Both the position numbers and the translations under genes were made by a program. A DNA stretch of 64,000 nucleotides. Origin: Exiguobacterium artemiae 255-15 (GTDB taxonomy: Bacteria > Bacillota > Bacilli > Exiguobacteriales > Exiguobacteriaceae). This document shows positions 7,423 through 24,432 of this stretch, one piece after another; position 1 is the first letter of the stretch, and every line of letters begins with the position of its first letter. Location of the stretch: contig NC_010556.1 of NCBI RefSeq assembly GCF_000019905.1, positions 398,001 to 462,000 of the forward strand, read 5' to 3'. The notes beneath the pieces are model-generated. The model searched no databases and was not told the origin of the DNA. It saw nothing but the letters and a program-made list of their open reading frames with translations.

Positions 7423-8823
7423 TTACGACTTCGCTAAGACATCCTGCTGACGAGGCGGTAAATGAATTGCCTGTCCGAGCAAGGCTTCGATAGCTTCCGT
7501 AAAGGCTTCGTTTCGACTTGGATGCGGCATGACCGGGAAGCGGACGTCTTCTTCTTTCGCATGCAGTTCAAGCGTCTGAGCAAAGACACCGGCCAATTCG
7601 ATCGCACCTTCGCCGATCATATGAATACCGAGGATGAGACTGGTCGTCGCATCGGAAATCACTTTGATGAATCCGCTACCTCCTTCGATGGTCGTCGCTC
7701 CATTGGCGTTAAGTGCGAACTGCGCGGTCCGGAACGAATGACCGGCGTCTGTCGCCGTTTGTTCCGTCAAGCCGATCGAGACAATGGGCGGAAGGGAGCG
7801 GATGATGGTCGGATAATAGGGAACCGTCGTATCAGCCGACTGTCCGCTCAGATGTTCAGCGGTCCGTTTTGCCTCGTGGATGGCACGTGTTGCAATAGCG
7901 GGACCGGGTGTCACATCGCCGATGGCATAAATGTGAGGACGGTTCGTCTGTCCGAATGGATCGACGGGAATCGTTCCGTCTTCTGCTAACGTCACACCGA
8001 TTCGTTCAAGCCCAAGCTCCAATGTATGCGGAACCCGGGGTAACGAGTGAAACAGGAAAGGAGCGGACCAGGTCGTTTCCTGCCCCTGTTTGACAACAGT
8101 CACGGTCACGTCCTCCTGAGCTTCGATTGCCGTGACGGTACCGGTGACCAACTGGATTTTTTGTTTTTTAAAGAGACGCCGCAACTCTTTGTCGAGACTC
8201 GGATCAAAATCGAATGCATCTGCAATCAGTGTGACTGACGTCCCGAGGGCTTGAAAACTCATGGCGGCTTCGATCGCGATATAGTCCTGTCCGATGATGA
8301 CGAGACGTTCGGGTAACTCGGTCAATTGATATAACTGTTCGGCATTCAGTACGGAAGGGGCATCTTGCTTGATGCTGTGACTGCCGGTCGCAATCACGAC
8401 ATCGTTAAACCGGTACGTATCAAACTGATGCCCGAGCTCGACACCGATCCGGTCATCCGCCAAGAAGGAAGCCGTTCCGTGAACGACTTCAATTGCGTTG
8501 GCCTGACAGAGCGCTTCGACTCCGGTTCGTAATTGACGGATGGTCCGTTCCCGGTACTCGACCAATTGACTGAAATCATGTGTCGGATGAAACGAGAAGC
8601 CGAGAGCAGTCATATGTTTCGTTTGCAGTTTGACTTCTGCGGCATGAGCAACGACTTTAGACGGAATACATCCTTTGTTCAAACAAAGTCCGCCGATTTG
8701 TGCCTGTTCAATCAAAGTGACGGTTCGACCCAATTGACTGGCACGGATCGCAGCGGTGTAACCGGCTGGACCACCGCCAAGAATCACTAAATCACGTTCT
8801 TGCGTCAGTTCACCTACGACCAT
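7423..8823 (-). CDS. lpdA: Dihydrolipoamide dehydrogenase (E3) of the 2-oxoacid dehydrogenase complex
   Basis: FAD flavoprotein that reoxidises the dihydrolipoyl arm of E2 and reduces NAD. It has 466 residues, the family norm. Visible elements are the FAD motif ILGGGPAGYTAA (about 14-25), the redox disulfide in CLNKGC (Cys47 and Cys52), the central NAD-binding fold, a second FAD segment AIGDVTPG, and the C-terminal active-site His/Glu in HPSRNEAF. Its ATG directly abuts the E2 stop, and GGAGCTGA provides the ribosome site. It is the last gene of the Phe dehydrogenase/2-oxoacid dehydrogenase operon, which implies a complex-specific E3 separate from the pyruvate dehydrogenase one. The symbol is generic. 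Confidence 0.93.
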   Translation of the reverse strand: MVVGELTQERDLVILGGGPAGYTAAIRASQLGRTVTLIEQAQIGGLCLNKGCIPSKVVAHAAEVKLQTKHMTALGFSFHPTHDFSQLVEYRERTIRQLRTGVEALCQANAIEVVHGTASFLADDRIGVELGHQFDTYRFNDVVIATGSHSIKQDAPSVLNAEQLYQLTELPERLVIIGQDYIAIEAAMSFQALGTSVTLIADAFDFDPSLDKELRRLFKKQKIQLVTGTVTAIEAQEDVTVTVVKQGQETTWSAPFLFHSLPRVPHTLELGLERIGVTLAEDGTIPVDPFGQTNRPHIYAIGDVTPGPAIATRAIHEAKRTAEHLSGQSADTTVPYYPTIIRSLPPIVSIGLTEQTATDAGHSFRTAQFALNANGATTIEGGSGFIKVISDATTSLILGIHMIGEGAIELAGVFAQTLELHAKEEDVRFPVMPHPSRNEAFTEAIEALLGQAIHLPPRQQDVLAKS

Positions 8824-10038
8824 TTAAATCAGCTCCATCAATAAAGTAGTGGGGTGTTCGATCAATCCGGCGAACCGGTTCGTAAAAGCAACGGCCGTTG
8901 CGCCGTCGGCGACGCGGTGATCAAAGGACATCGAGAGATTCATCATCGAACGGATGACGATTTGATCGTGGTCGTCAACACAGACCCGTTTTTTTGTTTT
9001 ATGGAAGGCAATCAAAGCAGTTTCCGGATAGTTGATGATTGGCGTCGCTCCCGTACTTCCGAGGGGACCGACATTACTCATCGTGAACGTGCTTGGTTTC
9101 AGGTCTGCAGCGCGTAAATCGCCTGTCTTGGCACGGGCCGACAGTTCTGCGACACGCGTGTGCAACTGTTGCATCGTCAATTTGTCAGCGTCACGGACGA
9201 CCGGCACAATCAGTCCATCCGCCGTCTCGGTTGCGACGCCGATATGAAACTGTTGCTCGAGAATGATCTGTTCGTTGGCCTCATCAAGTTTAGCGTTAAA
9301 GACCGGGAAGTCTTGCAGTGCGAAGATCAAGGCTTTAATGAAAAAGGCGTTGACGCTGATCGGTTTACCGGCCGTCTTTAATTCTTCGCGTAAGGCGAGC
9401 AGGCGGGTCATATCGACTTCTTCGAAATGCGTGACATGCGGAATCGTAAAGAGCGACTGTGTCATTTTTTTAGCGATCTGCTTCCGGATGCCTCGGAACG
9501 GAATCGTTTCGACCGGGTTAGCGGAAAGTGTACTTGTCTGTTCGACGACATCGGTTTTCTCGACGGAAGTATCGGCATCAAGGAACCGCCGGACATCTTC
9601 CTCTGTCACACGACCTGACGGATCGGAAGGCGGAACTTGTTCCAAATCAATTCCATGTTCACGTGCGATTTTACGCGTGTACGGTGTAGCCAAGACACGC
9701 CGATTATTTGACGGAACAGCCGGTGTGACAACAGGCGGCCGGACTTTGATTTGTTCCGTCGTCTGCTGGATCGGTTGTTCCGCAGTTACGGCCGTTTCTG
9801 TTTCAAGGGCTTCAATCAATAATAGGACCGTACCGACCGAGACGGTTTGACCGACAGGGATGATGAGGTCCGTAACGACACCGGAAACCGGTGCCGGTAA
9901 TTCAGCGACCATTTTATCGGTCGACACTTCGACGACAGGCTGATCAATTGTGACACGATCCCCGACCCGGACCAGATAGTTCGCGATTTCACCTTCCGTC
10001 ATCCCTTCACCGACGTCATGCAGCTTTACTTCAATCAT
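8824..10038 (-). CDS. Lipoamide acyltransferase (E2) of a branched-chain/aryl 2-oxoacid dehydrogenase complex
   Basis: Core of the complex; transfers the acyl group from lipoyl-lysine to CoA. Domain order in 404 residues: one lipoyl domain with the lipoylated Lys42 in STDKMVAE; a Pro/Thr/Gln-rich linker (about 80-112); a peripheral subunit-binding domain at 115-153 (ATPYTRKIAREHGI...GRVTEEDV); and the catalytic domain with SFDHRVADGA giving His374 and Asp378. The ATG at 10038 is preferred because AAGGAG sits eight bases upstream; the frame also opens with GTG at 10047. Substrate cannot be read from E2 alone; linkage to phenylalanine dehydrogenase suggests phenylpyruvate as well as or instead of branched-chain oxoacids. 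Confidence 0.9.
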   Translation of the reverse strand: MIEVKLHDVGEGMTEGEIANYLVRVGDRVTIDQPVVEVSTDKMVAELPAPVSGVVTDLIIPVGQTVSVGTVLLLIEALETETAVTAEQPIQQTTEQIKVRPPVVTPAVPSNNRRVLATPYTRKIAREHGIDLEQVPPSDPSGRVTEEDVRRFLDADTSVEKTDVVEQTSTLSANPVETIPFRGIRKQIAKKMTQSLFTIPHVTHFEEVDMTRLLALREELKTAGKPISVNAFFIKALIFALQDFPVFNAKLDEANEQIILEQQFHIGVATETADGLIVPVVRDADKLTMQQLHTRVAELSARAKTGDLRAADLKPSTFTMSNVGPLGSTGATPIINYPETALIAFHKTKKRVCVDDHDQIVIRSMMNLSMSFDHRVADGATAVAFTNRFAGLIEHPTTLLMELI

Positions 10039-10050
10039 CACATTCACTCC

Positions 10051-11049
10051 TTAAAAATCGACCGTACGCTGGATCGCTTCAAGCACACGCGTCGGCGTCG
10101 GGATGTAATGGTCCTCCAGGGCGAATAATGGAACAGGAACGTCGAACCCGGTGACGCGGGCAACTGGTGCCCGTAAATATAAGAACGAAGTATCGTTGAT
10201 CAGCGCAAGCAGATCATTTCCAAGACCACCCGTTGCCTGGGCTTCATGAATGATCACAGCCCGGCCGGTTTTTTGGACCGATGCTGAAATCGTTTCACGA
10301 TCCAGCGGATAAAGGGTCCGTAAATCAATCACTTCACAGGAGATACCACGGGTCGCGGCTTCCGTCGCGGCTTTTTGTGCGACTTGAACCATTGCTCCCC
10401 AGGCAATCAGGGTCACGTCCTGCCCTTCGGTGATGCAGTTGGCTTTACCGATTTCAATCGTATACGCTTCACTCGGAACCGGCTCCTTAAAGGCCCGGTA
10501 ACTCCGCATCGACTCGAGGAACAGGACCGGGTCCGGATCTTCAATGGCGGCAATCAATAATCCTTTCGCATCATACGGCGTCGAAGGGCAGACGACTTTC
10601 AGGCCGGGCATCGAAGTAAACAGCGCTTCCGTACTGTCGGAATGGATTTCCGGTGCCCGAATGCCGGCTCCATAAGGTGCACGGATGACCATCGGTACAC
10701 CGTAACGTCCCATTGTCCGCATCCGGATCCGTGAGACGTGGGTCATGATCTGTTCGTAAGCAGGATAGATAAAACCGAGAAATTGGATTTCGACAATCGG
10801 CTTAAATCCGTTGACCGCGAGACCGATCGATGTTCCGACGATGCCGGCTTCACTAAGCGGCGTATCGATGATCCGGTCTTCCCCGAACTCTTCCTGCAAA
10901 CCGTCCGTTGCCCGGAAGACACCGCCGTTTTTTCCGACATCTTCTCCGAGTACAAGCGTCGTCTCATCGTCCGTCAGTTTTGTCCGTAAAGCATCGGTGA
11001 CAGCCTGGACAAGCGTCATCTCTGTTTGCCGATTGATAGGTGTCGCCAT
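10051..11049 (-). CDS. 2-oxoacid dehydrogenase E1 component, beta subunit
   Basis: Partner of the E1alpha subunit in thiamine-diphosphate-dependent decarboxylation of a 2-oxoacid and reductive acylation of E2. The 332-residue protein shows the E1beta pattern: GEDVGKNGGVFRATDGL near residue 35, the SEAGIVG segment with the Glu that activates the cofactor, the GAGIRAPEIHSDS region, and the C-terminal transketolase-type domain with VARVTGFDVPVP. An AAGGGGG site precedes the ATG, two bases after the E1alpha stop. It matches bkdAB/acoB/pdhB families; naming after a substrate would be speculative. Confidence 0.92.
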   Translation of the reverse strand: MATPINRQTEMTLVQAVTDALRTKLTDDETTLVLGEDVGKNGGVFRATDGLQEEFGEDRIIDTPLSEAGIVGTSIGLAVNGFKPIVEIQFLGFIYPAYEQIMTHVSRIRMRTMGRYGVPMVIRAPYGAGIRAPEIHSDSTEALFTSMPGLKVVCPSTPYDAKGLLIAAIEDPDPVLFLESMRSYRAFKEPVPSEAYTIEIGKANCITEGQDVTLIAWGAMVQVAQKAATEAATRGISCEVIDLRTLYPLDRETISASVQKTGRAVIIHEAQATGGLGNDLLALINDTSFLYLRAPVARVTGFDVPVPLFALEDHYIPTPTRVLEAIQRTVDF

Positions 11050-11050
11050 G

Positions 11051-12103
11051 TTAATTCCCCCTTGCAGTCAGATAATCCGTTTTTTGACGGACTAAATCGT
11101 CCGGTAATGTTGCAAACGTATGGTCAAATAAATCATTGACGTCAGGCGGCGGGAAGGATTCCATCGTCTTGACGGCGGCTTCGACTTCTTCCTGATGACG
11201 GGACCGAATCGTTTCGATCTCCTGCTCATCATAAAAGCCCTGTTCCTTCATGAATGCTTCTAGTCGCTCGAGAGGATCCACTCGGTCCCGGGAGCGTTCC
11301 TGATCGCGGTATTTCGACGGATCGTCCGCCGTCGTATGGGCACCGAAGCGCCACGTGACGGCTTCGATCAATGTCGGACCGCCACCGGAACGGGCCCGCT
11401 CCAGTGCTTTTTGCATCGTGAAATACACGGCGAACACGTCATTGCCGTCAATCCGTACACTTGGCATACCGTATGCCAATGCTTTTTGGGCAATCGTTTC
11501 CGAATGCATCTGTTTTTGAATCGGGACGGAAATCGCATAGCCGTTGTTTTGATTAAACAGGATCACCGGAGCCTGGAAGACGCTGGCGAAATTCATGCCT
11601 TCATGAAAATCACCTTCCGACGTCGCTCCGTCGCCAAAGTAAGCGACGGCAACTTGGGTCGATCCTTTTCGTTTTTCCGCCCATGCCGCACCGACTGCGT
11701 GCGGAATTTGTGTGGCGATCGGAACAGCGGGTGGAAAGATATGCAACTCATCCGTCGCGACACAGCCTTCGACGCGTCCGTTCCAATATAAGAACGTCCG
11801 GACCATGTCGGCGCCAAACGTCAGTGTTGCTCCGTGATCCCGGTATGTCGGGAAGACCCAGTCTTTGTCCTGCAACGCATACGCACTGCCGACCTGTGCG
11901 GCTTCCTGTCCTTCGAACGGTGCATAGGTGCCAAGCCGCCCTTGACGTTGGAGATTGATCGCTTTCCGGTCAAACGTCCGGATTCGGTTCATATGTGTAA
12001 ATAAGGCGAGGCTCAAGTCTTTTGTCAGCAAATCGGTTTTAGATGTATCCGTCACTTGTCCCGCATCATCAAGGATCCGGTAAATCGGAAATTCGGTTTC
12101 CAT
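11051..12103 (-). CDS. 2-oxoacid dehydrogenase E1 component, alpha subunit
   Basis: Thiamine diphosphate-binding subunit that decarboxylates a 2-oxoacid. The cofactor motif runs from GDGATSEGD at residue 157 to NQNNGYA at about 190, the classic GDG-(N)-NN pattern. Residues upstream (FPTYRDHG at 84) match E1alpha of branched-chain and acetoin/pyruvate complexes. The ATG at 12103 is chosen because GGAGGTG sits seven bases before it; an earlier ATG at 12118 overlaps the phenylalanine dehydrogenase stop and contains that ribosome site. Order pdh-E1alpha-E1beta-E2-E3 differs from the usual Bacillus bkd operon, which carries ptb, bcd and buk; none of those is here. Confidence 0.92.
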   Translation of the reverse strand: METEFPIYRILDDAGQVTDTSKTDLLTKDLSLALFTHMNRIRTFDRKAINLQRQGRLGTYAPFEGQEAAQVGSAYALQDKDWVFPTYRDHGATLTFGADMVRTFLYWNGRVEGCVATDELHIFPPAVPIATQIPHAVGAAWAEKRKGSTQVAVAYFGDGATSEGDFHEGMNFASVFQAPVILFNQNNGYAISVPIQKQMHSETIAQKALAYGMPSVRIDGNDVFAVYFTMQKALERARSGGGPTLIEAVTWRFGAHTTADDPSKYRDQERSRDRVDPLERLEAFMKEQGFYDEQEIETIRSRHQEEVEAAVKTMESFPPPDVNDLFDHTFATLPDDLVRQKTDYLTARGN

Positions 12104-12117
12104 TGGTGTCACCTCCA

Positions 12118-13260
12118 TTAGTCGTTACGGATGTTCCATTTCGGTTTGATCGTATTCGTAAAGATATTGTTATGACGAGACCGGATCTGAATCCGTTTGT
12201 TGCACATCCGGTTGGCGGCTTCGAGTGTCGTGATTGATTCTGCATGCGACTCGTTAAACACTTCTAGCACCGCATCATAGATATGTTTCGTTTTTAACAG
12301 GACACGTTCATGGTTTGCCCCGTACAGTTCGTCAGCGACTTGAATCAGACCGCCGCCGTTGACGATATAATCGGGTGCATATAAAATCCCGCGTTGCTGT
12401 AATTCGAGTGCCAGCGCATCGTCGGCCAGCTGGTTGTTGGCCGATCCGCAGATGGCTTTACATTGCAACTGTCCGATATTCGCCGCCTGGATGACACCAC
12501 CATAGGCACACGGGACAAAGATGTCCGCATCTGTCAGATGAATTTCATGGGCAGCAATGACACGGACCGTTCCCGGTGTTTTTTCCGCCTGCTCAACGAG
12601 AGCAGCGAGAACGGCTTCGCTCAAATCGGATACATACAGATTCGCGCCGGCGGACAATAACTGTTCGGCAACTTTATAGCCGACTTTTCCAAGTCCCTGG
12701 ACGGCATAACTGGCCCGGCTCAAGTCATCGGATCCGTATAAGGTTTCGACAGTTGCCCGCAAACCGTAAATGACACCTTCTGCCGTCGGAATCGATGAAT
12801 CGCCGCTGCCGCCGAAGGCTTCCGGAATCCCGACGATCCGTGACGTTTCCCGGCTGGCATGGACGAAATCGTCCATCGTCGTGCCCATGTCCGTTCCGGT
12901 ATAAAACCGTCCGCCGAGCGAATCGACGAATCGTCCGAAAGCACGGAACAATTCAGGTGTTTTGTCTGTTGCCGGATTGCCGATGATGACGGCTTTCCCG
13001 CCGCCGAAATCAACGTCGGCTGCAGCGCATTTATACGTCATGCCGCGTGACAGCCGCAAGACATCATCGAGAGCTTCATCGACGGTCGAATACGGTGCCA
13101 TCCGGCAACCACCTAGGGCGGGACCGAGTGTCGTATCATGAATGGCAATGATGGCTTGCAGACCGGACACAGGATCATTACAAAAAACGACCTGCTCGTG
13201 ACCTGAGATTTTTTCCATGATCGATAGCGATGGATTTGTGGATGGGTTCAACATGTTCAT
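12118..13260 (-). CDS. pdh: Phenylalanine dehydrogenase (Glu/Leu/Phe/Val dehydrogenase family)
   Basis: NAD-dependent oxidative deamination of L-phenylalanine to phenylpyruvate. The 380-residue protein has both catalytic lysines (K77 in GMTYK, K89 in FGGGK) and the dinucleotide motif GLGKVG (189-194). Leucine dehydrogenase was considered, but signature positions follow phenylalanine dehydrogenase: [42 protein letters not shown] and a C-terminal KPKWNI, as I recall the Lysinibacillus sphaericus enzyme. The two specificity residues known from that enzyme, Gly124 and Leu307, correspond to Gly122 and Leu305 here, where leucine dehydrogenases have Ala and Val. A Gly replaces the usual Ala just before the last motif (NGGGLI). 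It opens a coupled operon with the E1alpha gene. Confidence 0.88.
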
Positions 13261-13303: not shown

Positions 13304-13699
13304 TCAAAAAACATGCGGCGTCAACTTTTCCTGAATCAGCTGCTTATTTAAGATAATCTGTTTGACTTCCCCAAGACCGATGACACGATTGCCGTGTCTG
13401 ACTTCGACTTTTGCCAATACGCGACCCGGGGTAAGCTCACTGACAACGGCTTCAATCCGGATATTCGATCCGAGTGTCGCCATTCCTACATGCTTTAAGG
13501 AAACAGCTCCACCGACACCTTCCTCCTGTTCTTCCAGATAAGGAAGGATGAGTTTTCGGGCAGCCCATTCCATATGATAGACCATCGAGACGGTCGAATA
13601 GGCGGGATGGACAACCACACCCTCAAACTGTGCAAACATTTCTTCTGTGACAGTCGTCTCGATCACCGCAGAGTCGCCGAGCGACAAACCGTTTTTCAC
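13304..13699 (-). CDS. FlK-type hot-dog acyl-CoA thioesterase
   Basis: A 131-residue hot-dog fold protein resembling fluoroacetyl-CoA thioesterase FlK. FlK uses Thr42, Glu50 and His76; the same residues occur here at Thr36, Glu44 (HMEWAAR) and His70 (LKHVGMATLG), with exactly matching spacing. The FlK Arg120 position is Gln114. Function is therefore probably acyl- or aryl-CoA hydrolysis. It is the first gene of the minus-strand run with phenylalanine dehydrogenase and the E1-E3 genes and is divergent from paaK, so it is a candidate replacement for PaaI/PaaY, clearing stalled phenylacetyl-CoA derivatives. Substrate is inferred from context only. Confidence 0.75.
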   Translation of the reverse strand: MKNGLSLGDSAVIETTVTEEMFAQFEGVVVHPAYSTVSMVYHMEWAARKLILPYLEEQEEGVGGAVSLKHVGMATLGSNIRIEAVVSELTPGRVLAKVEVRHGNRVIGLGEVKQIILNKQLIQEKLTPHVF

Positions 13700-13744
13700 G
13701 TCGATTCCCCCTTACCCCTGACCAGAGCTGGTCTTACCAAAAAC

Positions 13745-13753
13745 AGTATAACA
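13745..13753 (-). promoter_or_regulatory. Extended -10 promoter of the thioesterase/pdh operon
   Basis: On the minus strand TGTTATACT forms a TGN-extended -10 element (TATACT), about 46 bases before the thioesterase start. No good -35 hexamer is visible, as is common for extended -10 promoters. Confidence 0.5.
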
Positions 13754-13928
13754 CTTGTCACACGATATTTTATCAATCAGTTACAAAATGAGCAAACAAT
13801 TTCAGGAATATTTTCCAAAAAGAAATATCGTTTTTTGAGTTTCTCTGTAGGAAAGGTCTTTATTCACATATTTAATCGAAATAAAGACGGATCTTAAGAA
13901 AGTTGGGAGCTTTTAACAAAATGAAGGA

Positions 13929-13957
13929 TTGACAACATTGTGAACGTATCGTAGTTT
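13929..13957 (+). promoter_or_regulatory. Putative paaK promoter
   Basis: TTGACA at 13929-13934 is followed after 17 bases by TAGTTT at 13952-13957. The -35 is perfect and the -10 is weak, which would fit a regulated promoter. Confidence 0.5.
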
Positions 13958-13975
13958 AATGGTATAACCATTTTA

Positions 13976-13987
13976 AAACGAACGTTT
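13976..13987 (+). promoter_or_regulatory. Putative operator AAACG-AA-CGTTT before paaK
   Basis: A perfect 5-bp inverted repeat with a two-base spacer lies just downstream of the predicted paaK transcription start, where a repressor would block initiation. The core AACGNNCGTT equals the site I recall for TetR-type PaaR of Thermus. The only repressor visible here is PaaX, so the binding protein is uncertain. Confidence 0.45.
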
Positions 13988-14024
13988 ATTTATTGTGTTA
14001 TATAGACGCGGGAAGGGGTGCCAC

Positions 14025-15320: not shown

Positions 15321-15337
15321 GCAAAGGAGGAAATGAA

Positions 15338-16309: not shown

Positions 16310-16322
16310 AGGAGGAAAGACC

Positions 16323-16667: not shown

Positions 16668-17449
16668 CGGAAACAGAACGTTTAGCGTTGGCTTCACTGC
16701 TCTATCAACTGGCGGATGATGACTTTTTATACGCCTACCGGGGATCAGAGTGGTTAGGGCTCGCTCCGCATATCGAAGAAGATGTCGCGTCATCCTCGAT
16801 TGCCCAGGATTCGATGGGGCATGCGGCGATGTACTATCAGCTGCTTGAAGAAATCGGAGAAGGAAAAGCCGATGCACTCGCACACGTCCGGCTTGCGCAC
16901 GAACGGAAAAACTCCGTTCTCGTCGAACGCGTCAACGGACCGGGCTATTATATGGAAAACCCGGAATACGACTGGGCCTACGCCGTTGTCCGCAACTATT
17001 GTTACACGCTCGCGAAAAAGGTTCGGATTGATTCGTTGAAAAAAAGCAGTTATACGCCGCTTGCGGCCCTCGCCGTCAAGGTCAACATGGAGTTGTATTA
17101 TCATCTGCTGCACTGGCAGACGTGGTTCACCCAGCTGTATCAATCGACGGAAACAGCCCGTCAGAAAATGGATGCGGCGCTTGAACGGGTGCTGGCAGAC
17201 TTCGGTGATCTGTTTGATTACGGGGAAGCGTCAGAACTGATTGATGAAATGCGGTTGATTGAAGGTCAGGGGATTTTACTGGATCGCTGGTATCAGGCAC
17301 TGACGCCGGTGCTCGTCGATCTAAACGTCACGTTGCCGGAAATGAAGATGACCTACAACGGACGAAACGGTGAGCACTCGCCTGATTTGAACGATGCCTT
17401 ATCGACGCTCGGGGAAGTGTATCTGCTCGATCAGTCAGCGGTATGGTGA
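16664..17449 (+). CDS. paaC: Phenylacetyl-CoA epoxidase subunit PaaC
   Basis: Non-catalytic partner of PaaA in the epoxidase core. It is a 261-residue ferritin-like helical protein with the PaaC features LADDDFLYAYRGSEWLG near the N-terminus, IAQDSMGHA near residue 46 and a central LHWQTWFTQL segment. Only fragments of the iron-ligand pattern are conserved, as in other PaaC proteins, which fold like PaaA but bind no functional diiron site. It overlaps paaB by four bases and is followed by paaD after a short gap. Confidence 0.95.
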   Translation: MTETERLALASLLYQLADDDFLYAYRGSEWLGLAPHIEEDVASSSIAQDSMGHAAMYYQLLEEIGEGKADALAHVRLAHERKNSVLVERVNGPGYYMENPEYDWAYAVVRNYCYTLAKKVRIDSLKKSSYTPLAALAVKVNMELYYHLLHWQTWFTQLYQSTETARQKMDAALERVLADFGDLFDYGEASELIDEMRLIEGQGILLDRWYQALTPVLVDLNVTLPEMKMTYNGRNGEHSPDLNDALSTLGEVYLLDQSAVW

Positions 17450-17463
17450 AAGGGGAACGGCAG

Positions 17464-17958
17464 ATGACGACACGTTTAGAACAGGAGATCCGGCAGGCGC
17501 TCGATACGGTCAAGGATCCGGAAATCGATGCGGTCAGTATCCTGGATCTCGGGATGGTCGAAGCGACGGAATGGACGGAGACACCGTTCGGATACGATGT
17601 CCGGGTGACACTGCTGCCGACATTTTTAGGATGTCCGGCGCTTGATATCATTCAAAAAAATACGGAATCCGCGTTGTTGCAAGTACCTCGGGTCAATACG
17701 GTCAATGTCGTCTTCCTGTTTGATCCACCCTGGACATCGGACCGGATTACGGAACAAGGGATTGCCGGTCTGAAGTCGTTTGGGATTGCCCCGCCGCGGG
17801 TCGTCGATGGGAAATGGGAAATCGACTGTCCGTACTGCGGATCGACGTTCGTCTCGATTGAAAATCTGTTTGGTCCGACGGCTTGTCGCAGCATTTTATA
17901 CTGTAAATCATGCAAAAATCCATTCGAGGCGATGAAACCCGTCTCTACTCTCATGTGA
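17464..17958 (+). CDS. paaD: PaaD, DUF59/MIP18-type Fe-S maturation factor for the epoxidase
   Basis: Required in characterised systems for assembly or maturation of the phenylacetyl-CoA epoxidase, probably in Fe-S or iron insertion. The 164-residue protein has an N-terminal MIP18/DUF59 domain (ALDTVKDPEIDAVSILDLG) and a C-terminal cysteine-rich element with CPYCG, a single Cys in TACR, and CKSC, typical of PaaD. The ATG at 17464 is selected because AAAGGGG precedes it; an earlier ATG at 17443 overlaps paaC. In the usual operon paaE follows, but here an EthD-family gene follows instead. Confidence 0.92.
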   Translation: MTTRLEQEIRQALDTVKDPEIDAVSILDLGMVEATEWTETPFGYDVRVTLLPTFLGCPALDIIQKNTESALLQVPRVNTVNVVFLFDPPWTSDRITEQGIAGLKSFGIAPPRVVDGKWEIDCPYCGSTFVSIENLFGPTACRSILYCKSCKNPFEAMKPVSTLM

Positions 17959-17973
17959 AGGAAGGTAATCATT

Positions 17974-18297
17974 ATGGTAAAACTAATCGCGCTTTATACA
18001 CATCCGGAAAACAAGGAACAGTTTGACGAGCATTACTTTAATGTCCATGGTCCGCTGACGGCCAAGATTCCCGGTCTGCAACAGATGACGGTCACGAAAA
18101 TCGTCGGTTCACCGATGGGCGGAGACGGGAAATATTATCTGATGTGCGAAATGGTCTACGAAAGCCATGAAACGATGAAAGCCGGCATGCGTTCGCTTGA
18201 AGGGAAAGCATCCGGGAAAGATTTGATGGGCTTTGCGGGAGATCTTGTAACGCTGATGATTGGTGAAGAAGTCCATGCTGACGCCACAGTACGTTAA
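17974..18297 (+). CDS. EthD-family protein in the paa operon
   Basis: A 107-residue ferredoxin-like alpha/beta barrel protein of the EthD family: MVKLIALYTHPENKEQFDEHY...HGPLTAKIPGL is the family's N-terminal signature. EthD proteins often accompany oxidative degradation genes; their exact role is poorly known. It occupies the position where paaE lies in proteobacterial operons. It cannot itself be a reductase, since it has no flavin or Fe-S motif. Spacing to paaD is 15 bases with an AAGGAAGG site, and the hydratase start lies inside its 3' end. A role in the epoxidase step is inference. Confidence 0.75.
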   Translation: MVKLIALYTHPENKEQFDEHYFNVHGPLTAKIPGLQQMTVTKIVGSPMGGDGKYYLMCEMVYESHETMKAGMRSLEGKASGKDLMGFAGDLVTLMIGEEVHADATVR

Positions 18298-19051
18298 GGC
18301 GAGTATCGACGGTCGGATCGGCCGGATCCGGCTGAACCGTCCGGAGCGTTACAATGCCTTAAACCGGGCGATGATCCGGGAAATCGTCGAAGCGATGGAG
18401 CGGTTCGATCAGGATGAAACGGTTGCGGTCATCGTCCTGAACGGTGAAGGAAAATCCTTTTCCGCCGGAGCCGACATCGAGGAGATGGTCGACGCAACCC
18501 CGGTTTCGATGGAATTGCTTGATCCGTTTGCGGATTGGGACCGAATCAGCCGGCTGCATAAACCGTTGATTGCGGCCGTTCATGGCTTTGTGCTCGGCGG
18601 AGGGTTTGAACTGGCTCTCGCCTGCGACTTAATCTATGCGACACCCGAGACGCAGTTTGCGTTTCCGGAGGTCGGACTCGGCGTCATGCCGGGAGCCGGC
18701 GGGACACAACGGTTGACGAAACGGATCGGTCGGACACGGGCACTGGAATGGTTGTGGACGGGAGACCGGATGCCGGCATCGGAAGCACAGCAACTCGGGA
18801 TCATCAACCGGATCGTGGAAGCGGATCAGCTTGAAGCACATGTGTTGACAGTGGCCGAGCGGATTGCAGCGCAACCGGTGATGTCCGTGCGTCTGATTAA
18901 AGATGCGGTTGATAAAGCAGGGAATCTGTCGTTGCAAGACGGCATGGATCATGAACGACGAAATTTCTACTTACTATTCGGGACGAACGATCAAACGGAA
19001 GGCATGCAAGCTTTCGTTGAAAAACGCCAACCGACATTCAAAGGAAACTAA
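18275..19051 (+). CDS. paaF: Enoyl-CoA hydratase, PaaF-like
   Basis: Crotonase-family enzyme, probably 2,3-dehydroadipyl-CoA hydratase in the beta-oxidation-like end of the paa pathway. Of its 258 residues, Glu112 (GGGFELAL) and Glu132 (FPEVGLG) match the two catalytic glutamates of true hydratases, spaced by 20 as in the rat enzyme. The oxyanion-hole segment SAGADI is at 63-68. The ATG at 18275 lies inside the EthD gene with GGTGAAG as a modest ribosome site; a TTG at 18260 is an alternative. Assignment to PaaF rather than another hydratase rests on context. Confidence 0.8.
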   Translation: MLTPQYVKASIDGRIGRIRLNRPERYNALNRAMIREIVEAMERFDQDETVAVIVLNGEGKSFSAGADIEEMVDATPVSMELLDPFADWDRISRLHKPLIAAVHGFVLGGGFELALACDLIYATPETQFAFPEVGLGVMPGAGGTQRLTKRIGRTRALEWLWTGDRMPASEAQQLGIINRIVEADQLEAHVLTVAERIAAQPVMSVRLIKDAVDKAGNLSLQDGMDHERRNFYLLFGTNDQTEGMQAFVEKRQPTFKGN

Positions 19052-19065
19052 AAGGAGTGGGAGCT

Positions 19066-20574
19066 ATGTCAACGGTACATGAAAAAACAATTGAGATGAA
19101 ACGTTCCGTCTATCATCTGGTCATCAACGGCGAACAGGTCGAAGGGACATCAGGCGAGACATTCAAAACGTATAATCCGGCGACGGGCGAAGTCATCGCG
19201 GAAGTCGCAAAAGCGTCAAAAGCCGATGCCGATCGTGCTGTCCAGGCGGCGCGTGATGCTTTTGATCACGGGAAGTGGAAAATGTGGCCGGTCGGTCGCC
19301 GGTCACAAGTGCTGAATAAAATTGCCGGCATCATGCGTTCACGTTTTAATGAGCTCGTGGAACTCGAGATTCTGGATACCGGGAAATCACTCGCTGCGGC
19401 ACAGGGACAAATCACGCAAGCGATTGAAGACTTTGAATTTTATGCCGGTGCCATCGTCGGTCACCGCGGATCCGTCAATAACGTGCCGGGTCAATTCCAT
19501 AACTACACGGAAAAAGAACCGGTCGGCGTCTGTGCCCAAATCATTCCGTGGAACTATCCGTTGATGATGGCGGCGTGGAAAGTCGCACCGGCGATTGCCG
19601 TCGGCTGTTCGGTTGTCGTGAAACCGGCGACGCTGACACCACTGACAGCCATTATCCTGGGTGAAATTTGTCTCGAAGCCGGTGTACCGGCGGGCGTCGT
19701 CAACGTCATTCCGGGATCGGGCCGTGAAATCGGCAATCATTTGGTAGAGCATCCGAATGTTAATAAAGTGGCCTTCACCGGTTCAACACCAGTCGGAAAA
19801 GATATCATGGGCCGGGCGTCGGAAAGTCTGAAACGCGTCACGCTCGAGCTTGGCGGTAAATCACCGAACCTCGTCTTTGAGGATGCCGATATCACGGCAG
19901 CTGTCGACGGTTCGTTGTTCGGAATCTTCTACAACAGCGGTCAGTCGTGCGAAGCGCGCTCACGCCTGTATATTCATGAAGACATTTACGATACGTTCAT
20001 GGAACAATTCGTCGCGAAAACGAAACAATTGGTGCTCGGTAATCCGTTCGACAAAGGCACACACGTCGGAGCGATCATCGATCAACAGCAACTCGATGTC
20101 ATCGACGGTTATGTCCAGTCGGCAAAAGCGGACGGTGCTACGATTTTGACTGGGGGTCAAGTCGAGAAGGTAGCCGGCTTTGAAGAAGGTTTCTGGTATG
20201 CACCGACGATCATTGCCGATGTGACACACGACATGAAAGCCGTCCAGGAAGAAATCTTCGGACCGGTCGTCGTCGTGATGAAGTTCAAGGACGAAAAAGA
20301 AGCCGTCCGTCTCGCAAACGATACGGAGTTCGGACTCGGATCAGCGATTTGGACAAAAGACGGAGCGCGGGCGACACGGATTGCGAATCAAATCAAAGCC
20401 GGTATCGTCATGATCAACTGTCCGTTCTCGGCCTTCCCGGGCACACCGTTCGGCGGCTACAAACAATCTGGTTTCGGTCGTGAACTCTGCATCGAGACGC
20501 TTGATTTATATACGGAAACGAAAAGTATCCTGTCGTACTACGGCAGTCGTCCACTTAATCCGTTCGGACTGTAA
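19066..20574 (+). CDS. NAD(P)-dependent aldehyde dehydrogenase of the paa cluster
   Basis: A 502-residue class of aldehyde dehydrogenase with catalytic Glu261 (LELGGKSPN), Cys295 (NSGQSCEARSR) and the TGSTPVG cofactor loop near residue 238. In the paa pathway the semialdehyde formed after oxepin-CoA ring opening must be oxidised, normally by the aldehyde dehydrogenase half of PaaZ. This protein is the length of a single ALDH domain and lacks the fused MaoC-type hydratase of PaaZ, so it is the likely stand-alone equivalent. Betaine or phenylacetaldehyde dehydrogenase activity is an alternative. ATG 19066 follows AAAGGAG at a spacing of eight. Confidence 0.85.
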   Translation: MSTVHEKTIEMKRSVYHLVINGEQVEGTSGETFKTYNPATGEVIAEVAKASKADADRAVQAARDAFDHGKWKMWPVGRRSQVLNKIAGIMRSRFNELVELEILDTGKSLAAAQGQITQAIEDFEFYAGAIVGHRGSVNNVPGQFHNYTEKEPVGVCAQIIPWNYPLMMAAWKVAPAIAVGCSVVVKPATLTPLTAIILGEICLEAGVPAGVVNVIPGSGREIGNHLVEHPNVNKVAFTGSTPVGKDIMGRASESLKRVTLELGGKSPNLVFEDADITAAVDGSLFGIFYNSGQSCEARSRLYIHEDIYDTFMEQFVAKTKQLVLGNPFDKGTHVGAIIDQQQLDVIDGYVQSAKADGATILTGGQVEKVAGFEEGFWYAPTIIADVTHDMKAVQEEIFGPVVVVMKFKDEKEAVRLANDTEFGLGSAIWTKDGARATRIANQIKAGIVMINCPFSAFPGTPFGGYKQSGFGRELCIETLDLYTETKSILSYYGSRPLNPFGL

Positions 20575-20580
20575 AACCAA

Positions 20581-20612
20581 AGCGTGCGGACGTTCGTCCG
20601 GACGCTTTTTTA
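20581..20612 (+). terminator. Intrinsic terminator-like hairpin inside the paa operon
   Basis: AGCGTGCGGACG pairs with CGTCCGGACGCT (one mismatch) and is followed by TTTTTT, directly after the aldehyde dehydrogenase stop and 15 bases before paaH. It probably attenuates expression of the distal genes. Confidence 0.75.
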
Positions 20613-20626
20613 AAGGGGGAAATCAG

Positions 20627-21499
20627 ATGATGGTTCAACAGATGGTTGTCGTAGGATCAGGTGTGATGGGAAGAGGGATTGCGTACGTCGCAGCAGCAAG
20701 CGGATTTGACGTGACGCTCGTCGATGTGGAGCAACAACTGCTTGCGTCAGCGCAGCAAGAACTGGAAACGATTGCGGATAAAGGTGTCAGCCGTGGGAAA
20801 ATGACGACGGAAGAAGTCGGTCAACTGTTCGACCGTTTGCGTTATGCAACGGATTTAGAAGAGGCGGTCAAAGAAGCAGATCTCGTAATCGAAGCTGTTC
20901 CGGAACGACTCGAAATCAAACGAATGGTGTTTGAGACACTGGACCGTCATGCGCCGGCGGAGTGTGTCTTTGCGACCAATACGTCGACGATGAGCCCGAC
21001 CGAGATTGCGTCGTTTACGAAACGTCCGGAACGGGTCATGGCGATGCATTTCTTTAATCCGGTCCACCGGATGCCGCTCGTCGAACTGGCACGGGGTCTT
21101 GAGACATCGGACGAAACGGTAATGATCTGCGAAACCGTTGCGCAACAGATGGGAAAAGAGACGGTTGTCATTCAGGAGTTTCCCGGATTCGTTACGTCAC
21201 GGATCAGTGCCCTTGTCGGAAATGAAGCGTTTTATATGCTCCAGGAAGGACTCGGGACACCGGAAGAAATTGATAAAGCGATCAAGCTTGGACTGAACTA
21301 TCCGATGGGACCGTTTGAACTCGGGGATCTCGTCGGACTCGACACCCGTTTAAACAATCTGAAGTATCTGCATGAAAAATTGGGTGAAAAATACCGGCCG
21401 GCACCACTGCTCGAACAGTATGTCAAAGCAGGACGGCTCGGGCGAAAAACCGGACGCGGTGTCTATGAGTATTCCGACAGCGGGGTGAAGACACGATGA
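20627..21499 (+). CDS. paaH: 3-hydroxyacyl-CoA dehydrogenase (3-hydroxyadipyl-CoA type)
   Basis: NAD-dependent oxidation of a 3-hydroxyacyl-CoA, in this context 3-hydroxyadipyl-CoA to 3-oxoadipyl-CoA. The 290-residue protein carries the Rossmann motif VVGSGVMGRGIA at about 8-19 and the family HFFNPVHRMPLVE with catalytic His, then the C-terminal dimer domain (NYPMGPFELGDLVGLD). Length suits the single-domain PaaH/Hbd type. Two adjacent ATGs occur (20627, 20630) after AAAGGGGG. The frame runs upstream into the aldehyde dehydrogenase gene but has no sense there. It overlaps the thiolase by four bases. Confidence 0.9.
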   Translation: MMVQQMVVVGSGVMGRGIAYVAAASGFDVTLVDVEQQLLASAQQELETIADKGVSRGKMTTEEVGQLFDRLRYATDLEEAVKEADLVIEAVPERLEIKRMVFETLDRHAPAECVFATNTSTMSPTEIASFTKRPERVMAMHFFNPVHRMPLVELARGLETSDETVMICETVAQQMGKETVVIQEFPGFVTSRISALVGNEAFYMLQEGLGTPEEIDKAIKLGLNYPMGPFELGDLVGLDTRLNNLKYLHEKLGEKYRPAPLLEQYVKAGRLGRKTGRGVYEYSDSGVKTR

Positions 21500-22704
21500 G
21501 ACGTGTAGCGATCATTGATGCGGTCCGTACACCAATCGGCCGGTATAACGGGGCACTGAAAGACGTCCGCCCGGATGATTTAGGGGCGTGTGTCATTCAA
21601 GCCCTCGTTGACCGCAATCCGAATGTCGATCCGAAGCAAATCGAAGAAGTGATTTTCGGAAATGCCAATCAGGCGGGAGAAGATAACCGGAATGTCGCCC
21701 GGATGTCCGGCTTACTCGCCGGTCTGCCGGTAGAAGTCGCGGGAACAACCGTCAACCGGCTGTGCGGTTCCGGACTGGATGCCGTCATTGCGGCAGCCCG
21801 GGCGATTGCGATGAACGAAGGCGATATTTATATTGCCGGCGGAACGGAAAGCATGACCCGGGCTCCGTTCGTCATGGGCAAACCGGAAACGGGTTTCGCC
21901 CGCGGGAATCCGACGCTGTATGACACGACAATCGGCTGGCGGTTCGTCAATGAAAAGCTGCAAGGAATGTACGGAACGGACTCGATGCCGGAAACGGCGG
22001 AACACGTTGCAACCCGGTACGGCATTTCGCGGGAAACGCAGGACGATTTTGCCTTTTCCAGTCAGCAACGGGCGAAGCAGGCGATGGAAACACATCGTTT
22101 TCAAACCGAGCTGGTGCCGGTCCGGTATACGACACGTAAAGGTCAGGTCATCGAAGTCGATACGGACGAACATCCGCGTCCCGACACAAGCCGTGAAAAG
22201 CTTGGAACGCTCAAAAGCCTGTTTCCGAACGGTACTGTTACAGCGGGAAATGCATCGGGTGTCAACGACGGGGCAGCTGCGCTGTTGTTGATGAGCGAAG
22301 AAACGGCGGAACATCTTGGTCTGACACCGCTTGCCTATTACCGGGCCAGTGCCGTCGCCGGTGTCGAGCCTGCTGTCATGGGAATCGGACCGGTCGACGC
22401 GACCCGGAAAGTCTTGAAACGGGCCGGTTTGACGGTGGAGCAGCTGGACTTGATTGAACTCAACGAGGCGTTTGCGGCACAAAGCGTCGCCTGTATGAAC
22501 GAGCTTGGATTACCGCCGGAAAAAGTTAATGTCAACGGAGGTGCGATCGCATTCGGTCATCCACTCGGCGCAAGCGGGGCACGGATTTTGACGACGTTAA
22601 TCCACGAAATGTGCCGGACGAATCAGACATATGGTCTCGCAACGATGTGTGTAGGAGTCGGACAAGGCATTGCACTCATTGTTGAACGGGAGGAACTGAC
22701 ATGA
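21496..22704 (+). CDS. paaJ: 3-oxoadipyl-CoA/acetyl-CoA thiolase
   Basis: Thiolytic cleavage, here presumably of 3-oxoadipyl-CoA to succinyl-CoA and acetyl-CoA and of the 3-oxo-5,6-dehydrosuberyl-CoA intermediate. The 402-residue thiolase has the acylated Cys90 (NRLCGSGLDA), the GGAIAFGHPLGASGAR motif with catalytic His, and the C-terminal MCVGVGQG with the proton-transfer Cys. The early residues IIDAVRTPIGRYNGALKDVRPDDL resemble PaaJ/PcaF closely. Position between paaH and a hydratase, with ATGA overlaps on both sides, supports the pathway assignment over a general fatty acid thiolase. Confidence 0.9.
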   Translation: MRRVAIIDAVRTPIGRYNGALKDVRPDDLGACVIQALVDRNPNVDPKQIEEVIFGNANQAGEDNRNVARMSGLLAGLPVEVAGTTVNRLCGSGLDAVIAAARAIAMNEGDIYIAGGTESMTRAPFVMGKPETGFARGNPTLYDTTIGWRFVNEKLQGMYGTDSMPETAEHVATRYGISRETQDDFAFSSQQRAKQAMETHRFQTELVPVRYTTRKGQVIEVDTDEHPRPDTSREKLGTLKSLFPNGTVTAGNASGVNDGAAALLLMSEETAEHLGLTPLAYYRASAVAGVEPAVMGIGPVDATRKVLKRAGLTVEQLDLIELNEAFAAQSVACMNELGLPPEKVNVNGGAIAFGHPLGASGARILTTLIHEMCRTNQTYGLATMCVGVGQGIALIVEREELT

Positions 22705-23471
22705 TTCATTTGGAACGTTTGGATCACGTCGCCGTTATTCGGGTGGACCGGCCGGAACGGCTGAACTGTTTCGATTATCCGACGCTGGTCGAATTGAAAG
22801 AGCTCGTCGCAACCGTCCGTCGCGAGCCGGATATCCGGGTCGTTCTCTTCACGGGAACGGGGAAAGCATTTAGTGCCGGGGCGGATTTAAAGGAACGGGT
22901 GACGTTAAACGAAACGGAAGTCCGACGGAACGTCGAAATGATTCGTGACGTCTTCGCAGATATTGCCCGTTTGCCGCAACCGACGATTGCTGCCGTCAAC
23001 GGTCATGCGCTCGGAGGAGGCTTCGAATGGATGCTCGCCTGTGATTTCCGGATCATCGTCAACGGTGCGCTCGTCGGCTTAACGGAAACCAGTTTCGGGA
23101 TCATTCCCGGCGCCGGCGGGACACAACGTCTGCCCCGGTTGATTGGGGAGACCCGGGCAAAGGAAATGATTTTCACCGCAAAAAAAATCGATGCGGAGAC
23201 AGCGGAACGTTACGGCATCGTCTCGCGTGTCGTTCCGACCGTCGAAGAATTGATGGAAGTCTGTCTGGCTTTTGCCGACGAGATGCTGCGCAACGGACCG
23301 ATTGCCATCCGGCAGGCGAAACAGGCAATCGACCAAGGGCTTGATCATACGCTTTCAGAAGGCTTGAAACTTGAAACAGCTGCCTATGAAACCGTCATCC
23401 CGACGGAAGACCGCTTGGAGGCGTTACGTGCTTTTGCCGAGAAACGGACACCGCAGTTTCAAGGAAAATGA
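22701..23471 (+). CDS. Second enoyl-CoA hydratase/isomerase of the paa cluster
   Basis: Crotonase-family protein of 256 residues with ALGGGFEWMLACD and IIPGAGGTQRLPRLIG. Both hydratase glutamates are kept, Glu109 and Glu129, 20 residues apart. PaaG, the ring isomerase expected here, instead relies on an Asp and lacks this pair, so this gene does not look like a canonical PaaG; it more resembles YngF-like methylglutaconyl-CoA hydratases. By position it may nonetheless act as the 1,2-epoxyphenylacetyl-CoA isomerase or as a second hydratase. It is the last enzymatic gene before paaX and overlaps paaJ by four bases. Confidence 0.75.
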   Translation: MIHLERLDHVAVIRVDRPERLNCFDYPTLVELKELVATVRREPDIRVVLFTGTGKAFSAGADLKERVTLNETEVRRNVEMIRDVFADIARLPQPTIAAVNGHALGGGFEWMLACDFRIIVNGALVGLTETSFGIIPGAGGTQRLPRLIGETRAKEMIFTAKKIDAETAERYGIVSRVVPTVEELMEVCLAFADEMLRNGPIAIRQAKQAIDQGLDHTLSEGLKLETAAYETVIPTEDRLEALRAFAEKRTPQFQGK

Positions 23472-23547
23472 GGATGGTCGTTCTCTGAAATAACACGTAT
23501 ACTAACGGTACACAAAAAAACGTTATATTAAAGAGAGAGTGAATGAC

Positions 23548-24432
23548 ATGAGTGCGAATACACAATCGATGATTTTTACGGTCTACGGGGATTACATCCG
23601 TCATTACGGCAATCAAATCTGGGTCGGCAGTCTGATTCGTCTGCTCAAAGAGTTTGGTCATAATGAACAGGCGGTCCGGGTCGCGGTTTCCCGGATGGTC
23701 AAGCAAGGCTGGCTCACCTCACAAAAACAAGGCACGAAAAGTTTTTATTCGCTGACCCCGCGTGGTGTCGAGCGGATGGAAGAAGCCGCCCGGCGGATTT
23801 ATAAATCGACACCTCATGTCTGGGACGGAAAATGGCGGACGCTGATGTACACGATTCCGGAAGACAAACGGCAAATCCGTGATGAATTGCGGAAAGAGTT
23901 GTCGTGGAGCGGATTCGGAAATTTATCGAACGGTGTCTGGATTTCGCCGAACCCACTCGAAAAAGAAGCGGAACGGTTGATTGAAGCTTATGATATCAAG
24001 GCGTATATCGACTTTTTTGTCGGCGAATACCACGGACCGCAACAGGATCAATCACTGGTCGAACGGGCCTTTCCGCTCGATGAATTACAGGAACGATATG
24101 AACAGTTCATTGCTGAGTACAGCCGGCGTTACATCGTCCATCAAAGCCGGATCCAGCTCGGTGAAATGGATGAGGAACAGTGTTTTGTCGAACGGACGAC
24201 ACTCGTCCATGAATACCGGAAGTTTTTATTTACGGATCCCGGACTGCCGCAGGAGCTGTTGCCGGATGAGTGGAGCGGTCATCACGCGGCCTTGTTGTTT
24301 GAACAATACTACCGGCTGCTCGCAGAACCGGCGAGCCGGTTTTTTGAATCCATTTTTCGTGAAACCCACGATGTGACGCAAAAAAGTGCCGATTATGATG
24401 CTTCGGAACATCCGTTGTTCGCAGAACGCTAA
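23548..24432 (+). CDS. paaX: Phenylacetic acid degradation repressor PaaX
   Basis: Transcriptional repressor of paa genes, released by phenylacetyl-CoA in characterised systems. The 294-residue protein has the PaaX layout: an N-terminal winged helix (about residues 8-70, including QAVRVAVSRMVKQGWL and SFYSLTPRG), a middle domain starting near WDGKWRTLMYTIPE, and a C-terminal effector domain. The ATG at 23548 follows AAAGAGAGAG; a GTG at 23539 is an alternative. It is separated from the hydratase by 76 bases that contain ATAACAC and AACGTTAT motifs also seen before paaK, so it may autoregulate. Confidence 0.92.
   Translation: MSANTQSMIFTVYGDYIRHYGNQIWVGSLIRLLKEFGHNEQAVRVAVSRMVKQGWLTSQKQGTKSFYSLTPRGVERMEEAARRIYKSTPHVWDGKWRTLMYTIPEDKRQIRDELRKELSWSGFGNLSNGVWISPNPLEKEAERLIEAYDIKAYIDFFVGEYHGPQQDQSLVERAFPLDELQERYEQFIAEYSRRYIVHQSRIQLGEMDEEQCFVERTTLVHEYRKFLFTDPGLPQELLPDEWSGHHAALLFEQYYRLLAEPASRFFESIFRETHDVTQKSADYDASEHPLFAER

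Follow-up and report, generated by a model that had tools for sequence, protein, structure and literature searches.

A six-gene operon of Exiguobacterium artemiae 255-15 very probably encodes a phenylpyruvate dehydrogenase complex dedicated to the breakdown of phenylalanine. The operon lies in a stretch of 64,000 nucleotides (398001-462000 on the main contig; genome size 3.04 Mb), hereafter the window, where it runs on the minus strand from 13699 down to 7423. Family scans assign its genes to a thioesterase, phenylalanine dehydrogenase (PheDH) and the E1-alpha, E1-beta, E2 and E3 components of a 2-oxoacid dehydrogenase complex. It stands back to back with a divergent plus-strand paa cluster for phenylacetyl-coenzyme A (phenylacetyl-CoA) catabolism, from 13995 to 24432. 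Our proposal draws on gene content, gene order, E1 lineage, linkage, co-occurrence and the loss of a motif, and all reactions and substrates named below are inferred from these.

An operon for PheDH and a complete 2-oxoacid dehydrogenase complex

The operon genes, in order of transcription, are:

13304..13699, minus strand: FlK-type hotdog acyl-CoA thioesterase, first operon gene (PF22636, 106 bits, E 1.3e-30)
12118..13260, minus strand: PheDH, ELFV family (PF02812 and PF00208 above cut-off; GTDM and FVHASR motifs)
11051..12118, minus strand: E1-alpha of a 2-oxoacid dehydrogenase complex (TIGR03181, 467 bits, cut-off 411.35; PF00676)
10051..11049, minus strand: E1-beta (PF02779 and PF02780; 48.6% identity to the E1-beta of the genome's own pyruvate dehydrogenase, PDH)
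8824..10047, minus strand: E2 with lipoyl, E3-binding and acyltransferase domains (PF00364, PF02817, PF00198)
7423..8823, minus strand: E3-like flavoprotein with an altered NAD motif, IGQDYIA for IGGGYIG (TIGR01350, 357 bits, cut-off 408.8)

The PheDH and E1-alpha genes overlap by 1 base, and gaps of 1, 3 and 0 bases follow between E1-alpha and E1-beta, E1-beta and E2, and E2 and E3, respectively. A reading made from the sequence alone had already placed PheDH and the four complex components in one operon back to back with paa genes; the family scans and the gaps of -1, 1, 3 and 0 agree with it, and re-listing the open reading frames (ORFs) returned identical positions. The thioesterase gene lies 43 bases upstream of the PheDH gene, and its homolog adjoins PheDH in all nine of the named Exiguobacterium loci, where the E1-alpha orthologs are 93-95% identical to that of the window.

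The E1 lineage is linked to PheDH and paa genes

Neighbourhoods were surveyed at 60 test loci chosen by E1-alpha match alone, each extending at most 8 kb to either side of the E1-alpha gene, with several shortened by contig ends. They represent one genome from each of 58 genera, together with a second copy in genome G064 and, for one genus, a second genome. A paa-linked gene was defined as paaA, B, C, D, K, X or EthD, and the controls were ten branched-chain 2-oxoacid dehydrogenase (BKD) loci and ten PDH loci of similar size from ten genomes. PheDH was found in 38 test loci and a paa-linked gene in 22, with both present in 11, either in 49 (48 when EthD is left out) and neither in 11, as compared to none of the 20 control loci for PheDH and none for a paa-linked gene. 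The controls instead carried their own partners: leucine dehydrogenase (LeuDH) in 10/10 BKD loci, with ptb or buk detected in five, and a deformylase homolog in 10/10 PDH loci. LeuDH, ptb and buk were absent from the window operon and from all 60 test loci. A thioesterase was present in 12 of the 60, and a TrpX-like or NSS transporter homolog in 10. Similarly, among 22 named Bacillota loci outside Exiguobacterium, at 55-68% identity, PheDH was adjacent in 12, paa genes lay within 10 kb in nine, and five had neither. Bacillota loci at 48-50% (L084, L089, L092, L107) and archaeal and other distant loci gave no PheDH match in the fetched flanks.

The same association is seen across whole genomes. 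Within the order of E. artemiae (38 genomes, 19 of the genus and 19 of its sister genus) an E1-alpha ortholog (E <= 1e-95), PaaA and a PheDH ortholog at 81-100% identity to the window enzyme were each found in 19/19 genomes of the genus and in none of the 19 of the sister genus. Each sister-genus genome has a single ELFV match (E <= 1e-60) that is 47-49% identical to the window PheDH, like LeuDHs. A broader sample of 398 genomes, taken as Bacilli, was scored with an E1-alpha threshold of E <= 1e-105 and with PaaA above its model cut-off. E1-alpha occurred in 136 and PaaA in 145 of these, with 126 genomes having both, 10 E1 only, 19 PaaA only and 243 neither; leaving out the family of E. artemiae (n = 360) the corresponding counts were 107, 10, 19 and 224. 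Counted by family, again with that family excluded, E1 was found in 27, PaaA in 31 and both in 26. The sampled genomes share kinship, and a Fisher p for the E1/PaaA co-occurrence is not a fair probability. On these co-occurrence counts and the control loci, the linkage of the window E1 lineage to PheDH and paa genes is not chance. The sequence-only reading had suggested a neighbourhood survey of this kind; PheDH or a paa-linked gene accompanies the E1 in 49/60 test loci as against 0/20 controls.

Pocket motifs point to a PheDH

Judged by its pocket motifs, the ELFV enzyme of the operon is a PHENYLALANINE dehydrogenase. It carries GTDM and the hexapeptide FVHASR, whereas the genome's own LeuDH, to which it is 45.9% identical, has AEDV, and the LeuDHs of the ten BKD control loci read AEDV / MDxIxx. 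A published PheDH pocket is given as 122G-123T-124D-125M (PMC9728165), and another published PheDH has the hexapeptide FVHAAR (PMC8967036). In the 38 linked loci the motif could be read directly in 35, as GTDM in 33 and GTDV in two, each followed by a Phe-led hexapeptide; of the other three, two have GCDM followed by FVHAKK or FVHAAK and the third has to be read in two frames. The last, in L165 (about 6871-7970), spans two overlapping frames and may reflect a frameshift or an assembly error. No NCBIfam PheDH or LeuDH model matched either the window enzyme or the genome's LeuDH, the best model for both being that for tryptophan dehydrogenase, below its cut-off. A homolog 59-60% identical to the window PheDH occupies the equivalent position in Sporosarcina ureae DSM 2281 (L046), where PheDH, E1-alpha, E1-beta and E2 are consecutive. 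A PheDH has been cloned from this species (AB001031, cited in PMC8967036).

A third E1 complex, distinct from PDH and BKD

The window complex is the third heterodimer-type E1 complex of this genome, with PDH and bkd encoded elsewhere. A genome search with PF00676 returned three E1-alpha genes (frames of 346-363 codons), one long E1 of 953 codons that is SucA-like by its length, and one weak match, and PF00198 returned four E2 genes. The bkd locus (L013) comprises a sigma-54 type regulator, ptb, LeuDH, buk, E3, E1-alpha, E1-beta and E2, with the ptb and buk models matching above cut-off beside LeuDH, and the PDH locus (L014) contains E1-alpha, E1-beta, E2 and E3 beside a deformylase gene. The sequence-only reading had pointed out that the usual partners ptb, bcd and buk are missing from the window operon, and ptb, buk and LeuDH are indeed found together in this separate bkd locus. 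It had also held that the lack of a bkd locus elsewhere would count against a role in phenylalanine breakdown; separate bkd and PDH loci are both present. In fact, all nine other genomes with a window-type E1 that were searched with PF00676 also hold PDH- and BKD-lineage E1s, and the tenth genome so searched, a member of the sister genus, has E1s of the PDH and BKD lineages only.

The window E1-alpha is 39% identical to the genome's own PDH E1-alpha and 37.6% to its BKD E1-alpha. TIGR03181 scores it higher (467) than the PDH E1-alpha itself (456; cut-off 411.35). In a 72-row E1-alpha tree the window lineage forms one side of a branch (Shimodaira-Hasegawa-like approximate likelihood ratio test, SH-aLRT, 99), separate from BKD and from PDH, the latter including the Bacillus E1 of PDB entry 1w85. 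In a 101-row tree the PDH set (12 rows, SH-aLRT 100) and the BKD set (11 rows, 99) are apart and the window lies outside both. The 61 test rows of this tree, window included, divide into three groups: 50 rows in a main set (support 84), seven in another (93) and four on the PDH side. The E1s nearest the threshold of the class search thus do not all belong to one clade; the four PDH-side rows (L169, L190, L197, L220) were retained in all counts. E1s of TIGR03182 type (L136-L138, of which L136 was scanned) fall far from the window lineage in the trees. By comparison with the acetoin E2 model NF011457 (67 bits, cut-off 307, covering only positions 6-127 of 372), the window E2 appears not to be of AcoC type.

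E1-alpha residues 64 and 91 differ between the window lineage and PDH, and the BKD controls have F64 and Y91 in 10/10. Position 64, which we take from a motif to align with Phe61-alpha of human PDH, is Thr in 60/60 test loci and Phe in all 20 PDH and BKD controls. The human residue is listed among those of the catalytic site in PMC6168537. We considered Thr64 as a signature of an aromatic pocket and rejected it: 46 of 49 distant homologs also carry Thr, as does one of the three TIGR03182-type rows.

Some species have more than one version of this E1. Records L056, L059, L061 and L109 hold E1-E2-PheDH sets, and records of the same species (L057, L050, L051 and L049) hold an E1 pair beside paa genes, a combination that points to two E1 versions per genome. 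Separately, for haloarchaeal E1-alpha homologs (L066, L069, L078, L082, L087, L099, L100, L115) the fetched flanks showed no detectable E1-beta.

A proposed route from phenylalanine to phenylacetyl-CoA

In the proposed route, PheDH would convert L-phenylalanine to phenylpyruvate, ammonium and NADH. The thiamine diphosphate-dependent E1 pair would decarboxylate phenylpyruvate and load the E2 lipoyl arm with the phenylacetyl group, which E2 would transfer to CoA to give phenylacetyl-CoA. This is the substrate expected for the PaaABC epoxidase encoded on the opposite strand, after which the paa enzymes would open the ring. The E3-like flavoprotein would reoxidise this arm; given its altered NAD motif, both its electron acceptor and the usual NAD-linked reaction are in doubt. 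Relief of CoA traps is the probable role of the thioesterase, and free phenylacetate would be recaptured by PaaK in a safety loop. From the established chemistry of these families, the complex would spare the ATP that the ligase spends when phenylacetate is activated by PaaK. Phenylpyruvate as the substrate is supported by the linkage of the E1 lineage to PheDH and paa genes across many genera, a pattern that favours the earlier suggestion that the complex has evolved toward phenylpyruvate. That suggestion had cast the complex as acting instead of other routes. The complex is present, but "instead of" is too strong: because paaK stays in the window cluster, the complex route would add to the ligase route rather than replace it.

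Other routes from phenylpyruvate to phenylacetyl-CoA or phenylacetate use indolepyruvate ferredoxin oxidoreductase, or phenylpyruvate decarboxylase together with an aldehyde dehydrogenase (ALDH). Genome family searches found neither the ferredoxin oxidoreductase nor the decarboxylase. Of the four PF02776 matches, three exceed their NCBIfam cut-offs (MenD and two acetolactate synthases); the weak fourth is a KorA-type protein, which is also the sole PF01558 match (91.6 bits, as compared to an IorA cut-off of 650.9). HgmA had no match in the genome.

Several known systems resemble parts of this arrangement. In Streptomyces pristinaespiralis the pyruvate dehydrogenase-like PglB/PglC is described as converting phenylpyruvate to phenylacetyl-CoA for L-phenylglycine biosynthesis (PMC7089894, PMC10685826). 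Like the window, it has an E1-alpha/beta pair proposed for this reaction and a thioesterase in the same operon; unlike the window, it serves secondary metabolism, employs an aminotransferase and, among the five pgl genes listed in the available text, has no E2, E3 or PheDH, a comparison made by description. The gene context that typifies PglB/PglC, an E1 pair linked to genes that form phenylpyruvate or use phenylacetyl-CoA, is found in the window. The closest logical model is the bkd operon (ptb, LeuDH, buk, lpd, E1-alpha, E1-beta, E2), which also combines an amino acid dehydrogenase with a complete complex; in the window PheDH replaces LeuDH, ptb and buk are absent and the paa cluster would serve as the sink. 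The Bacillus PDH complex (E1, PDB 1w85) shares the subunit plan and the TIGR03181 match but differs in lineage, neighbours and E1-alpha residues 64 and 91. The paa catabolon is matched by PaaA, B, C, D and X above cut-off and by a PaaK-like ligase, whereas PaaE and PaaZ found no match among the scanned cluster ORFs and an EthD-family protein and a separate ALDH are present.

Weighing alternative functions

Several observations weigh against a dedicated phenylpyruvate complex. TIGR03181 would label the window E1-alpha a pyruvate dehydrogenase, and the Phe-to-Thr change at its position 64 is not specific, being shared with those 46 of 49 distant homologs. The fetched stretches of 11/60 class loci and 5/22 named Bacillota loci hold neither PheDH nor paa genes, and 10 of the 136 E1-bearing genomes lack an above-cut-off PaaA, although five of the ten have a weaker PaaA-family match and three have an E1 that falls on the PDH side. 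The complex could also serve several 2-oxoacids. A broad aromatic or hydrophobic 2-oxoacid dehydrogenase, accepting indolepyruvate and 4-hydroxyphenylpyruvate as well as phenylpyruvate, overlaps our proposal and deserves consideration as a minority possibility: TrpX-like transporter homologs, below the TrpX model cut-off, stand beside some loci, and the 11 loci with neither PheDH nor a paa-linked gene are compatible with such breadth. Against this breadth, the neighbouring ELFV enzymes of the 38 linked loci have motifs of PheDH type, in one case across a frame shift, and PaaA is present in 126 of 136 E1-bearing genomes.

The other candidates fare considerably worse. Synthesis of phenylacetyl-CoA for release as phenylacetate or for a product, rather than for degradation, is improbable; a thioesterase comes first in the Exiguobacterium operon and is near 12/60 class loci, and the PglB/PglC precedent serves antibiotic synthesis (PMC7089894), but the operon is linked directly to a paa degradation cluster with which it shares a divergent intergenic region. 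It is most unlikely that the window holds a second, bkd-like branched-chain complex whose ELFV enzyme is a leucine/valine dehydrogenase. The architecture is the same and bkd operons also contain an ELFV dehydrogenase; however, a bkd locus is present elsewhere in the genome, the E1-alpha lineage is separate, and all ten BKD controls combine AEDV-type LeuDH with F64 and Y91 and lack any paa-linked gene, where the test loci have T64 and PheDHs of GTDM, GTDV or GCDM type. An equally slim chance attaches to a second pyruvate or acetoin dehydrogenase lying beside paa by accident. Its E1-alpha is above the TIGR03181 cut-off and nearer to PDH than to BKD, but the linkage is kept over many genera, PDH is encoded elsewhere in the genome, the TIGR03182-type E1s are distant and the acetoin E2 model is matched over only a fragment of its length.

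The operon offers a concrete candidate for the enzyme that forms phenylacetyl-CoA from phenylpyruvate in paa-bearing Bacilli. Among these bacteria its E1 lineage is common, occurring in 126 of the 145 PaaA-bearing sampled genomes, yet the standard model names the window E1-alpha a pyruvate dehydrogenase. A literature search found no description of such an operon for phenylalanine breakdown in Bacilli in the portions of text available, although one may still exist in print. Phenylpyruvate is absent from the main text, as far as available, of the GapMind catabolism paper (PMC9007349) and of the paa papers PMC13186573 and PMC9493321. The same paa cluster and thioesterase are reported for Exiguobacterium sp. 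RIT594, where they are discussed in relation to polystyrene; "dehydrogenase complex" and phenylpyruvate do not occur in the available text of that paper (PMC9416434). The operon offers an alternative reading of that cluster.

An E3-like flavoprotein with an altered NAD motif

The operon E3 keeps the FAD motif GGGPAGY, the disulfide motif CLNKGC and the His-Pro-x-x-x-Glu dyad, while its NAD motif is changed from IGGGYIG to IGQDYIA and the following strand has lost its acidic end. The second Gly of the motif is lost in 19/19 aligned E3s of this kind, namely those of the window, nine named Exiguobacterium loci and nine other Bacilli loci. In 13 representative altered rows this position is Asp in 11 and Gly in none, as compared to Gly in 8/8 intact E3s. 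The intact set comprises two E3s of the genome itself, from its PDH and BKD loci, and six encoded in other operons that carry the wider E1 lineage; these six indicate that the Gly loss is not common to all complexes of that lineage, and in many of the 60 test loci no E3 gene was seen. A partial match from L164 (27%, GGG kept) was excluded from both sets as a distant protein. In an E3 tree the 14 altered rows form one side of a branch (100/100). Mean identity in the altered and intact sets is 51.3 vs 51.0% for the FAD domain, 35.5 vs 45.5% for the NAD domain, 43.9 vs 52.3% for the second FAD part and 51.5 vs 53.8% for the interface. The altered E3s share a conserved basic helix, KEL.R..KK.K, in the NAD domain. 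The TIGR01350 score (cut-off 408.8), 357 for the window E3, reaches 415 in L044 and 447 in L200, relatives with the same motif loss.

The E3 gene is under purifying selection in Exiguobacterium and is not decaying: across eight gene pairs dN/dS was 0.06-0.10 over the whole gene and, where computable, 0.04-0.11 for the NAD domain, with dS > 1 in several pairs. An AlphaFold model (mean predicted local distance difference test score, pLDDT, 90.7) has a normal E3 fold, its second best match being 1ebd with template modelling (TM) scores of 0.90 and 0.92; the model is uninformative on NAD binding.

We tentatively raise the possibility, which we consider less likely than not, that the operon E3 and its Bacilli kin are dihydrolipoyl oxidases that no longer reduce NAD+, with the lipoyl half kept and the NAD domain remodelled, and that their electrons pass to ferredoxin, flavodoxin, the quinone pool or PaaABC. 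No gene for PaaE, the reductase that usually serves PaaABC, was found in the cluster. Taken to its boldest extent, and if true, this idea would mean that phenylpyruvate oxidation provides the two electrons for phenylacetyl-CoA epoxidation by the next enzyme. Flavin disulfide oxidoreductases without an NAD(P)H site exist, for example FFTR, DDOR and GliT. Like the operon E3, they keep FAD and the disulfide and have lost the dinucleotide motif; they are thioredoxin-reductase-like, whereas the operon protein belongs to the E3 family. If the possibility is borne out, an E3 without its NAD motif under purifying selection would represent a new electron route in a textbook complex. The cell's PDH E3 could also serve the operon's complex.

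The paa cluster and the shared intergenic region

The features of the divergent side are:

13700..14024, no strand: shared divergent intergenic region with two conserved blocks (alignment of 10 Exiguobacterium sequences)
13995..15320, plus strand: paaK, phenylacetate-CoA ligase, likely start TTG at 14025 (TIGR02155, 560 bits, below the cut-off of 646)
15338..16309, plus strand: paaA (TIGR02156, 454.6 bits, cut-off 280)
16317..16667, plus strand: paaB, start chosen by us (TIGR02157 above cut-off in ORF 16089-16667)
16664..17449, plus strand: paaC (TIGR02158 above cut-off)
17443..17958, plus strand: paaD (TIGR02159 above cut-off)
17974..18297, plus strand: EthD-family small protein between paaD and paaF (TIGR02118 above cut-off)
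18260..19051, plus strand: enoyl-CoA hydratase, paaF-like (crotonase models, none above cut-off among the best 25)
19057..20574, plus strand: ALDH (several ALDH models, none above cut-off among the best 25)
20480..21499, plus strand: 3-hydroxyacyl-CoA dehydrogenase, paaH-like (NF006722 above cut-off)
21496..22704, plus strand: thiolase, paaJ-like (TIGR01930 above cut-off; 3-oxoadipyl-CoA thiolase models just below theirs)
22701..23471, plus strand: enoyl-CoA hydratase/isomerase, paaG-like (crotonase models, none above cut-off among the best 25)
23539..24432, plus strand: paaX repressor (TIGR02277, 324 bits, cut-off 264.55)

Two non-coding blocks between the divergent operons are largely kept in the window and nine other Exiguobacterium sequences, and the TTG start of paaK at 14025 was judged from the Exiguobacterium alignment and from gene distances. 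A promoter scan of this region found no match to a sigma-70 consensus. A palindrome before paaK, AACGAACGTT at 13977, was considered as an operator and set aside, its conservation in the alignment being only partial.

PaaE and PaaZ had no match among the scanned paa-cluster ORFs, the scope of the search for either. Our best guess for the cluster ALDH is a ring-cleavage semialdehyde dehydrogenase; a phenylacetaldehyde dehydrogenase is less likely because no phenylpyruvate decarboxylase was found. In the 21 kb fetched around the operon of E. flavidum (L043), the extent of the search there, the operon and paaA are present and paaK has no match. The EthD-family small protein is also found in many related clusters. 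Beside the paa cluster a FabK/nitronate monooxygenase-like protein is encoded at 25086-26021 on the plus strand (FabK model, 288 bits, cut-off 453), and FabK-like homologs lie near paa and PheDH genes in L044, L045, L048, L164, L168, L172, L176, L181, L184, L200, L207, L215 and L219.

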